Shown here piece after piece: positions 28,606-30,958 of a stretch of DNA of 64,000 bases (positions are counted from its first letter, which is position 1; each line of letters opens with the position of its first letter). The DNA is from Acinetobacter lwoffii (lineage in GTDB: Bacteria; Pseudomonadota; Gammaproteobacteria; Pseudomonadales; Moraxellaceae). The translations under genes and the position numbers were made by a program. The notes beneath the pieces are model-generated. The model saw nothing but the letters and a program-made list of their open reading frames with translations, searched no databases and had not been told where the DNA came from. The stretch is from NCBI RefSeq assembly GCF_019048525.1, contig NZ_CP077369.1, forward strand, positions 1,116,001 to 1,180,000. The letters run 5' to 3'.

Positions 28606-30387
28606 GTGGAAAATGAGCAGAATCACGTGTCGCAGCAAGACTCCAATTTAATGGCCTGGATTGACTATTTGTGTCAGCCGCCGTTTAGTACGGCTACATT
28701 TGATCCGGCAGCAAAATTCTTGATCCAGCAACTGCTTGAGGCGATACAGGCAGGGGATAGCTGTATCGAAGTTGATCCTCAGCAGGTTGCCCTATTACAT
28801 AATCTGGTTCTAGACCGCCGTCAGCAAAGTACAGGAATTGCACCATTTATTTGTGCAGATCAGCATTTATATCTGTACCGCTATTGGCAACTGGAACAGG
28901 CGGTAGCCTCACATATTGCTCGGATTAAAGCCCAACCGGTTGCCGCTATTGATTTATCCGAACGTGATCGCAATTTATTGTCAGATCCACAGCAAAAATT
29001 GGCACTGGAAATGGTTGCGCGGCAGGCGCTGAATATTATTAGCGGCGGTCCGGGTACCGGTAAAACCTATACCTTGGCGCATATGATTGCGGTCCTGCAT
29101 GAAGCCTTGCCAAATATCCGGATTGCCATGGCAGCACCTACCGGAAAGGCCGCACAGCGCATGAAAGAAGCACTGCAAAAAGCCTTGCATAGTGAAGCGT
29201 TACAAGAGTTTGAGCTAGAACAATTAAAACAGTTACAACCGGTCACCCTGCATCGCTTATTGGGTCTGGGCACTCGCGGACAGCCACGCTTTCATGCCAA
29301 GCAGCCTCTGCCTTATGATGTGATCGTGGTCGACGAAGCCTCGATGCTGGATTTAAACCTGTCACAGATGTTACTGGCCTCCGTACCGTCTCATGCACGG
29401 CTGATTTTACTCGGTGATGCAGATCAGCTGGCCTCTGTGGATGTGGGAACGGTATTGGCAGATTTACAGCAAGTAGCGACTCTGGAAGATAACCGGGTCA
29501 ATTTAATCACCACGCGGCGTTTTGCGACTGGGGCCAAGATTGGCGCAATGGCGGAGTTTATCCAGCAGAATCATGAGCCTTCTCACGTCTTGCAGAAATT
29601 TGAGCAACAGATTCTAGCAGCCAGTGAGTTACAGGCGATCGATTTGGATCAGGTTGAGATCGACCATTTGCAGCTGCAGTACCTGCTCGCTGGCGCCGAA
29701 CAGACCGCGCATAACTTGAATCAGTATTATGACCAGCTGATGTATGGTTATCAGGCTTATATACAGGCCATAAAAACAGAACGAAACTCAGCTGATTTTG
29801 AGCAGTATGTGCAACAGGTAGTCAAAACTTTTGATGATTACCGGATTTTAACAGCAATCCGTTCTGGTGATCTGGGGCTGCTCAAGATCAACCTGCAGAT
29901 TGAGCAACGCTTTTTAGCAGCCCAAGGGCAGTTGAAACAGGGCGACTGGTATGTCGGACGCCCCGTCATGATGAGTTATAACGACTATCAGTTGGGGCTG
30001 TCCAATGGTGATATTGGCATCTGTTTTTTACGTGAGCAATCTGGTCAGCACCAGTTTGAAGTGTATTTTCCGAGTTTAGAAAAATGGGTGTTAGCCACCC
30101 GTTTACCTAAAAGTATTGAAACTGCTTTTGCACTGACCATTCACAAATCTCAAGGTTCAGAATTTTCCCATACCGCAGTGGTGCTGGATCAATATGCAAA
30201 AAATTTATTGAGCAAAGAGTTGATTTATACTGCAATTACTCGAGCCAAAAAAGTGGTCAGTTTATTGGTAGATTATGATGCTTTTACACAAGCACTTTGT
30301 GTCAGAACCACCCGGAAAAGTGGTTTGAGCCAAAAAATCATTGAAAAATCTAGTAATTTAATTGGCAAAAATAATCAAATCTTGTAG
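28606..30387 (+). CDS. recD: Exodeoxyribonuclease V subunit alpha (RecD)
   Basis: This subunit is the 5'-3' helicase of RecBCD, which drives fast unwinding and influences nuclease control. Superfamily 1B motifs are in order: IISGGPGTGKTYTL (Walker A), APTGKAAQRM, VVDEASMLDL (Walker B), LLGDADQLASVD, and near the C-terminus FALTIHKSQGSEF and LIYTAITRAKKVV. The GTG at 28606 is preferred because GAGG lies 8 bases upstream; a GTG at 28582 would add 8 residues (601 in total). The gene is the last of recC-recB-recD, 71 bases after recB. A gap of 894 bases follows before rpsO. Confidence 0.94.
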   Translation: MENEQNHVSQQDSNLMAWIDYLCQPPFSTATFDPAAKFLIQQLLEAIQAGDSCIEVDPQQVALLHNLVLDRRQQSTGIAPFICADQHLYLYRYWQLEQAVASHIARIKAQPVAAIDLSERDRNLLSDPQQKLALEMVARQALNIISGGPGTGKTYTLAHMIAVLHEALPNIRIAMAAPTGKAAQRMKEALQKALHSEALQEFELEQLKQLQPVTLHRLLGLGTRGQPRFHAKQPLPYDVIVVDEASMLDLNLSQMLLASVPSHARLILLGDADQLASVDVGTVLADLQQVATLEDNRVNLITTRRFATGAKIGAMAEFIQQNHEPSHVLQKFEQQILAASELQAIDLDQVEIDHLQLQYLLAGAEQTAHNLNQYYDQLMYGYQAYIQAIKTERNSADFEQYVQQVVKTFDDYRILTAIRSGDLGLLKINLQIEQRFLAAQGQLKQGDWYVGRPVMMSYNDYQLGLSNGDIGICFLREQSGQHQFEVYFPSLEKWVLATRLPKSIETAFALTIHKSQGSEFSHTAVVLDQYAKNLLSKELIYTAITRAKKVVSLLVDYDAFTQALCVRTTRKSGLSQKIIEKSSNLIGKNNQIL

Positions 30388-30493
30388 GTAAAAGCTTACA
30401 AGGATTCAGGAAATTGACGCATAGAGCTTTTGCTCGGTTTTTGAGAAGATTGGTTCTACAAAATAACTCAACACGGAAAGTTGAGCATAATCG

Positions 30494-30606
30494 TATAATG
30501 ATAATAATAATGTCGGTAGACAGCGAACTTACAGTGAAGTAAGTGAAAGAGGAAACTTACAGCCGCTAAGCCTTGTAGTTTTGGGAGAGACTACAAGGCT
30601 TTTTTA
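30494..30606 (+). ncRNA. Candidate structured small RNA with own terminator (unit 1)
   Basis: A TATAAT hexamer lies at 30494-30499 and a perfect terminator at 30568-30605, giving a possible RNA of about 95-100 bases. It contains one AAnAAnAA motif near the 5' end (30503-30510) and two direct copies of AACTTACAG (30526-30534 and 30554-30562) with a GTAAGT (30539-30544) between them that can pair with either. No reading frame of note is present. No -35 element at good spacing was seen, and the RNA could instead be a 3' portion of recD transcripts. Family not recognised. Confidence 0.45.
30568..30605 (+). terminator. Strong terminator of the small-RNA unit
   Basis: AAGCCTTGTAGT (30568-30579) and ACTACAAGGCTT (30590-30601) pair over 12 bp with a 10-base loop, followed directly by a T run. 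Confidence 0.92.
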
Positions 30607-30796
30607 TATCCTGATTTTTTTATAGGAAGCTTGCTGGATTTTTATCCTAATTTCTTAGCAAAAATTTTCAGCCCTAGCCAGTAAACTTAAGTAAATAGCG
30701 TTAAATAAAACGAGAGCTATGTAACATTATGCAAATTTTCACCCTGTGATGTACGAAATGGCTTACAGCAAAATGAGGCAAATACCTCTATTTGTC

Positions 30797-30812
30797 TGGT
30801 GGGAATATGGCA
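30797..30812 (+). promoter_or_regulatory. Possible sigma-54 promoter (GG-N10-GC)
   Basis: TGG at 30797-30799 and GCA at 30810-30812 have the GG and GC doublets separated by exactly 10 bases, the invariant feature of sigma-54 (RpoN) promoters; 7 of the 11 conserved consensus bases match by my count. A GTAACA half-site at 30721-30726 lies about 75 bases upstream, a usual enhancer distance. The predicted start is near 30823, just ahead of the A-rich RNA. Unsupported by any experiment. Confidence 0.35.
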
Positions 30813-30822
30813 AAATCTACCA

Positions 30823-30958
30823 CACAAGGAAGATGATTTTTCAACAGGATGTTTGAAAATAATAATAAGCGTAAAACGCCATAATAATAAAATAAATAAT
30901 AATGATAAGAGAAAGAACTACAGCGCCAAAAAGCCCGAGTTTACTCGGGCTTTTTTTT
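30823..30958 (+). ncRNA. Candidate Hfq/Crc-binding decoy RNA (CrcZ-like)
   Basis: Downstream of a sigma-54-like promoter lies a stretch with AAnAAnAA motifs at 30858-30865, 30861-30868, 30883-30890 and 30895-30902, at three separate sites, with a small GCG-TAAAA-CGC hairpin (30869-30879) between the first and second. It ends in a strong terminator. AAnAAnAA is the sequence bound by Hfq with Crc in pseudomonads, and the RNAs CrcZ and CrcY carry several copies to titrate the complex and relieve carbon catabolite repression. Acinetobacter has Crc-dependent repression, but to my knowledge no such decoy is established there. No coding frame is apparent. The homology is by analogy of motif and layout only. 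Confidence 0.4.
30931..30958 (+). terminator. Terminator of the A-rich RNA
   Basis: AAGCCCGAGT and ACTCGGGCTT pair over 10 bp around a two-base loop, with an A run before and eight T after. Confidence 0.92.

Follow-up and report, generated by a model that had tools for sequence, protein, structure and literature searches.

A conserved Hfq-type small RNA upstream of rpsO in Acinetobacter appears to carry a GacS/GacA-type promoter and CsrA-type sites

The RNA encoded at positions 30823–30958 of the window (the whole 64,000-nucleotide stretch of Acinetobacter lwoffii DNA analyzed here) is a real small regulatory RNA, conserved in a large part of the genus Acinetobacter. Judged by position and sequence, its A. 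baumannii orthologue is ABUWs076, also called Art70 and sRNA99, and we use the name Art70 below. The RNA is most likely mainly an Hfq-binding RNA that has CsrA-type sites in many species, while its neighbor Art71 is most likely of the CsrA-binding type. Our main reading, to which we assign a probability of about 0.5, is that the RNA is Gac-activated and occupies Hfq and, in many species, also CsrA; the parts of this reading that we infer are GacA control, CsrA binding, titration and the link to Crc. The Gac/Hfq model is based on conservation, promoter geometry, motif enrichment and the presence of genes for GacA, CsrA and Hfq.

Gene order in the window is recB, recD, an 894-base gap, rpsO and pnp (names read from the translations), RpsO being the same protein as in an A. 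lwoffii genome, and the recD–rpsO gap contains two terminated small RNAs, both on the + strand, of which Art70 is the second (Table 1). In predicting the span of Art70, we placed its 5' end 73 bases past the first base of the upstream site and its 3' end where the T-run of the terminator stops. This gives 136 nt in the window and 149–150 nt in A. baumannii-complex relatives, compared to a published 160 nt, so that the inferred 5' end may be off by about 10 bases. The strong terminator ending near 30958 and the hairpin between the first two A-rich sites, both described by the first-pass annotation, were borne out. No Rfam family matched the window at the gathering threshold; at a lax threshold there were 29 sub-threshold matches (best E 0.012–0.03), far below gathering scores and mostly resting on the terminator. 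A seven-codon open reading frame from 30833 was discarded, its start codon not being kept in relatives (judged by eye). In A. baumannii-complex regions (L040, L045 and L150, for example), Art70 and rpsO lie ~1.3 kb farther apart than in the window, with room for an extra gene.

Table 1. Positions of the predicted elements in the recD–rpsO gap and at the end of recD, in window coordinates
Feature	Position	Strand	Basis or remark
UAS-A, GacA-type site TGTAGGTAAAAGCTTACA, overlapping recD end	30383..30400	+	11/12; predicted
Art71-type small RNA (A. baumannii ABUWs077), own terminator, directly after recD	30456..30605	+	conservation; probe match
Art71 GGA hairpins	30467-30485 and 30539-30560	+	folding
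UAS-B, GacA-type activating site TGTACGAAATGGCTTACA (TGTACG-N6-CTTACA)	30750..30767	+	12/12 to TGTAMG-N6-CTTACA; predicted
Extended -10 element TGGCAAAAT	30808..30816	+	pattern at UAS-B +58 in 60/73 and +59 in 1/73 regions
Art70/sRNA99-type small RNA	30823..30958	+	conservation; Northern probe match and spacing point to A. baumannii ABUWs076 as orthologue
First GGA, near 5' end (AAGGAAG)	30828..30830	+	GGA at RNA position 3-6 (from 0) in 52/68, ~7% expected from GGA density
Hairpin TTTTCAACAGGATGTTTGAAAA, second GGA (30847-30849) in loop region	30838..30859	+	GGA at position 22-28 in 45/68
A-rich site 1, two overlapping AAnAAnAA	30858..30868	+	motif match
Short hairpin GCG-TAAAA-CGC	about 30869..30879	+	minimum-energy fold
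A-rich site 2, AAnAAnAA	30883..30890	+	motif match
A-rich site 3, AAnAAnAA	30895..30902	+	motif match
Conserved 3' element AACTACAGCGC, 5' of terminator	30916..30926	+	AACTACAGCGC in 44/68, TACAGCG in 51/68
Intrinsic terminator of Art70	30928..30958	+	computed; strong

Weiss and colleagues list ABUWs076 (Art70, 160 nt) and ABUWs077 (Art71, 154 nt) in A. baumannii AB5075, a strain for whose sRNAs Northern sizes are reported to agree with RNA-seq (PMC5320573). The published Art70 Northern probe matched 24/25 letters in an A. baumannii-like genome (G105) and 19/25 in the window, where the last 14 letters are unbroken; the Art71 probe matched 25/25 in G105, and the distance from the end of Art71 to the start of Art70 is 295 bases in both G105 and AB5075. 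The window RNA thus agrees with sRNA99/Art70 in locus, in order and spacing with Art71, in the sequence of the probed region and in its A-rich motifs, although it is shorter and has diverged in sequence. In Hfq RIL-seq of A. baumannii, no sRNA is reported to appear more often in chimeras than sRNA99, which mostly takes the RNA1 position and has three A-rich motifs; its behavior was likened by the authors to that of CrcZ (PMC12802169). It also makes up 13.4% of chimeric reads in Hi-GRIL-seq, a method without Hfq selection (PMC11472050). The transcript, its Hfq association and its likeness to CrcZ are therefore already published for A. baumannii; what the first-pass annotation proposed for Hfq holds but is not new. 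What looks new is the GacS/GacA-type promoter together with the CsrA-type sites: the main text of the RIL-seq, Hi-GRIL-seq and sRNA-catalogue papers does not mention GacA (PMC12802169, PMC11472050, PMC5320573), and our literature search found no statement of GacA control, CsrA-type sites or genus-wide conservation in the texts it reached, with an earlier (2006) prediction of the locus being possible. Art70 has been described as an RNA that only A. baumannii possesses and that A. baylyi lacks (PMC5320573), whereas our synteny-based search recovered it from a much broader set of Acinetobacter genomes, in regions none of which bears the name A. baylyi.

Conservation was assessed in 97 regions upstream of rpsO, made up of the window, 36 named loci and 60 further genomes chosen from 148 with an rpsO match; after eight duplicates were dropped, 89 distinct regions were left, of which L036 is shorter. 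A site pair was defined as two GacA-type sites, each at least 11/12 to TGTAMG-N6-CTTACA, 230–480 bases apart, with matches inside Art71 (TGAAAGAGGAAACTTACA, 11/12) left out. The pair was present in 73 of the 89 distinct regions but in 0 of 1780 first-order Markov shuffles, and the mean number of GacA-type sites per region, here including those within Art71, was 1.92 vs. 0.014 in shuffles. Several of the 16 regions lacking the pair had one site or a weaker second one, while L058, L061 and L160 had no GacA-type site at 10/12. None of the 44 rpsO loci outside Acinetobacter (of 80) had a site of at least 11/12 within 2.9 kb, L066 and L086 offering less upstream DNA. Genome-wide, TGTANG-N6-CTTACA occurred at six distinct places (eight strand matches) in the window's genome, compared to two matches for the reversed control.

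The upstream site characteristic of the Gac/Rsm system, TGTAAG-N6-CTTACA at a set distance, was found ahead of Art70 (UAS-B, 12/12 with M at position 5), and in 61/73 regions an extended -10 of the form TGn[CT]AN[AG]AT lies at a near-fixed distance from this second site. The promoter of Art70 therefore appears to be GacS/GacA-controlled, as far as the site allows GacA binding to be predicted. The first-pass annotation had instead proposed a sigma-54-like promoter. The letters CTGG-N10-GC are indeed present at 30796–30811, where TGGCAAAAT overlaps them, but GG-N10-GC is kept at the corresponding place in only 4/73 regions (the window, L031, L032 and L123). We set sigma-54 control aside mainly on this comparison, and RpoN/CbrB control of the kind described for CrcZ is not supported either, CbrAB being called unique to the Pseudomonas family in a review (PMC8871633).

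We then considered the A-rich motifs, counted in the 68/73 regions where the script located a terminator (in the remaining five, one is visible on inspection). In the window, the four AAnAAnAA matches at three sites claimed by the first-pass annotation were confirmed, with starts at 30858, 30861, 30883 and 30895. Taken alone, this number is mildly unusual (mean 1.19 in 5000 dinucleotide shuffles; P(≥4) = 0.048). Across the genus, we counted 4.37 AAnAAnAA per RNA compared to 1.81 in dinucleotide shuffles, a sum that 0 of 100 shuffles reached (n = 68), where the shuffle statistics, as elsewhere, treat regions as independent and the RNAs come from related species. At least two separate A-rich sites, the multiple-motif feature of CrcZ and CrcY, were present in 59/68. 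The first n of the motif was variable (T 118, C 87, A 53, G 39), as expected if the A pairs alone matter. The short Hfq-type RNA with several conserved AAnAAnAA that the first-pass annotation proposed is further supported by the A. baumannii orthologue being Hfq-bound in RIL-seq (PMC12802169).

In addition to A-rich motifs, Art70 appears to carry candidate CsrA-type sites in many species, with CsrA binding suggested by the placement of GGA. Both position-conserved GGA were present in 44/68 Art70. GGA itself was little enriched (2.04 per RNA vs. 1.55 in dinucleotide shuffles), and A(N)GGA/AGGA more so (2.76 vs. 1.51). Our CsrA reading of these sites is shaped by the CsrA SELEX consensus and by CsrA bridging distances. 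A consensus fold of Art70 (MAFFT alignment, n = 68) gave an energy of about zero and no fold was obtained, and this attempt was replaced by pair counts around the anchored GGA. Among 37 distinct flanks of the second GGA, 113/185 positions pair, whereas re-dealing the partners 500 times gave 86 on average and never more than 101; when the flanks were slid, an offset of +2 gave 94/185, not far under 113, and an offset of +1 gave 73. A GGA loop on a stem of at least 4 pairs was found in only 27/68 Art70 (12% in shuffles), which speaks against a Csr role, as does the lack of the 5' GGA in 16/68. In these 16 Art70, AAnAAnAA numbered 5.69, compared to 3.96 in the rest. The A-rich motifs are therefore the steadier feature, being kept and even more numerous where the 5' GGA is lost.

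Stronger CsrA-type signatures were found in Art71, which was present in 73/73 regions with a median length of 151 nt. A GGA loop with a stem occurs in 71/73 of these RNAs, compared to 11% in shuffles, and the terminator loop TTTTGGGAGAGA is identical in 73/73 relatives. Art71 (ABUWs077) is likely a Csr-type RNA. Elsewhere in the window's genome, two further loci, L113 (G000 C1:970503) and L116 (G000 C1:1243813), have the upstream site followed by an RNA with about six GGA each and are probable Csr/Rsm-type decoys. At L111 and L112 the site is present with no clear multi-GGA RNA after it; at L112 (G000 C1:827346) the site is palindromic and is followed by a stretch containing AGAAACTACAGCG, a sequence also present at the 3' end in numerous Art70 copies. 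In three other genomes (L191 in G133, L192 in G061 and L193 in G104), three + strand RNAs, each headed by the site and with many ACAGGA hairpins, cluster within a few kilobases. Their nine + strand sites lead to RNAs with 3 to 5 GGA, some also with AAnAAnAA stretches; no Art70-type -10 follows the sites of these clusters, and the - strand site matches there do not have the look of a multi-GGA-type RNA. L113, L116 and L191–L193 share the upstream site pattern of Art70 and an RNA start ~73 bases on, but have 3 to 7 GGA. Csr-type RNAs have also been predicted at two other loci of strain ADP1 (PMC5568370).

As to the regulators that such a model requires, a UvrY/GacA homologue (47–50% identity), one per genome, was found in 148/149 genomes and CsrA in 147/149, both misses being incomplete genomes; an hfq gene was found in the window's genome. 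The sole genome of the 149 with no UvrY/GacA match at E ≤ 1e-40, G136 (L180), has both sites upstream of rpsO, and its gacA may be defective, absent from the assembly or overlooked by the search. With a homologue in 148/149 and both sites kept in the exception, comparing site presence with gacA presence is uninformative.

In the mechanism that we propose, phosphorylated GacA bound ~64 bp upstream of the predicted start would turn on a sigma-70-type promoter of Art70, and the neighboring Art71 would be switched on together with it. Art70 would load Hfq by its U-tail and, at the distal face, by its AAnAAnAA stretches, and would compete with A-rich mRNAs for Hfq, while two GGA sites ~20 nt apart would, in many species, hold a CsrA dimer. 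A GacS/GacA signal could in this way relieve both CsrA repression, through Art71 and other Gac-type RNAs, and Hfq repression, through Art70. A more specific proposal, which we put forward only tentatively, is that the Gac regulon of Acinetobacter includes, in Art70, an Hfq decoy resembling CrcZ beside a CsrA decoy, such that one two-component signal frees CsrA and Hfq together, whether Crc is involved or not.

Alternatively, Art70 could be an Hfq sRNA under Gac control whose main activity is base pairing with numerous mRNAs, the A-rich stretches serving only as its docking sites for Hfq. We consider this rather unlikely, and the chimera data fit titration and base pairing alike: the prominence of sRNA99 in RIL-seq and in Hi-GRIL-seq, as well as the conserved element AACTACAGCGC, favors pairing, but sRNA99 is reported mostly as RNA1 in chimeras, as CrcZ is. 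Moreover, GCGCTGTAGTT, the complement of that element, occurs at three places in the window's genome, one of which is the RNA itself, compared to five for the reversed control. A search for a pairing target via AACTACAGCGC, covering perfect matches only, yielded no convincing site, the two other GCGCTGTAGTT places having no clear target. It is improbable, in our view, that Art70 is nothing more than a CsrA decoy similar to RsmY or CsrB, with Hfq only as its stabilizer. Such a decoy would account for the GacA-type site and the position-conserved GGA, and P. aeruginosa RsmY is said to be Hfq-stabilized (PMC8395346); however, GGA is only modestly above its shuffled level, the 5' GGA is gone from 16/68 Art70 in which A-rich motifs are nonetheless numerous, and Art71, L113 and L116 fit a decoy role better than Art70 does. 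The 18-base upstream site does resemble those of P. fluorescens rsmY (TGTAAGCATTCTCTTACA) and rsmZ (TGTAAGCATTCGCTTACT), and GGA motifs are shared, but RsmY and RsmZ are described with eight GGA (PMC4353343), whereas Art70 has about two and more A-rich Hfq motifs.

The model of the first-pass annotation makes Art70 an Hfq/Crc decoy of the CrcZ type, controlled by sigma-54 together with an activator like CbrB. In its favor are the several A-rich motifs, the CTGG-N10-GC letters and the published likeness to CrcZ. Like CrcZ and CrcY of Pseudomonas, Art70 is a stand-alone RNA and has several A-rich motifs for the Hfq distal face. CrcZ, however, is reported as a 407-nt RNA in the cbrB–pcnB gap driven by RpoN and CbrB (PMC8395346), while Art70 is ~150 nt long, lies in the recD–rpsO gap and has a GacA-type site and a -10 in place of the rarely kept sigma-54 motif, and we regard this model as very improbable. 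Art70 can work like CrcZ without being CrcZ, as it has the A-rich feature and not the promoter. Overall, the A-rich Hfq-type RNA of the first-pass annotation stands and its RpoN/CbrB promoter does not, and the GacA-type site, the neighboring sRNA and the GGA motifs had been missed. That the stretch is chance A-rich spacer DNA, its terminator belonging to something else, would be in keeping with the mildly unusual motif count of the window alone, but is scarcely credible given a Northern-confirmed A. baumannii orthologue (PMC5320573) and conservation with fixed promoter geometry.

Together, these results bear on one of the busiest sRNAs of A. baumannii, for which the literature, as far as the texts consulted extend, names no regulator or function; the accounts of sRNA99 among these texts likewise give no activator and no CsrA sites. 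The GacA site, if real, would give sRNA99 a regulator and a testable role joining CsrA and Hfq, both of which are reported to be critical for A. baumannii growth. If the joint release of CsrA and Hfq is true, Acinetobacter joins in one signal what Pseudomonas splits between Gac-RsmY/Z and CbrAB-CrcZ.
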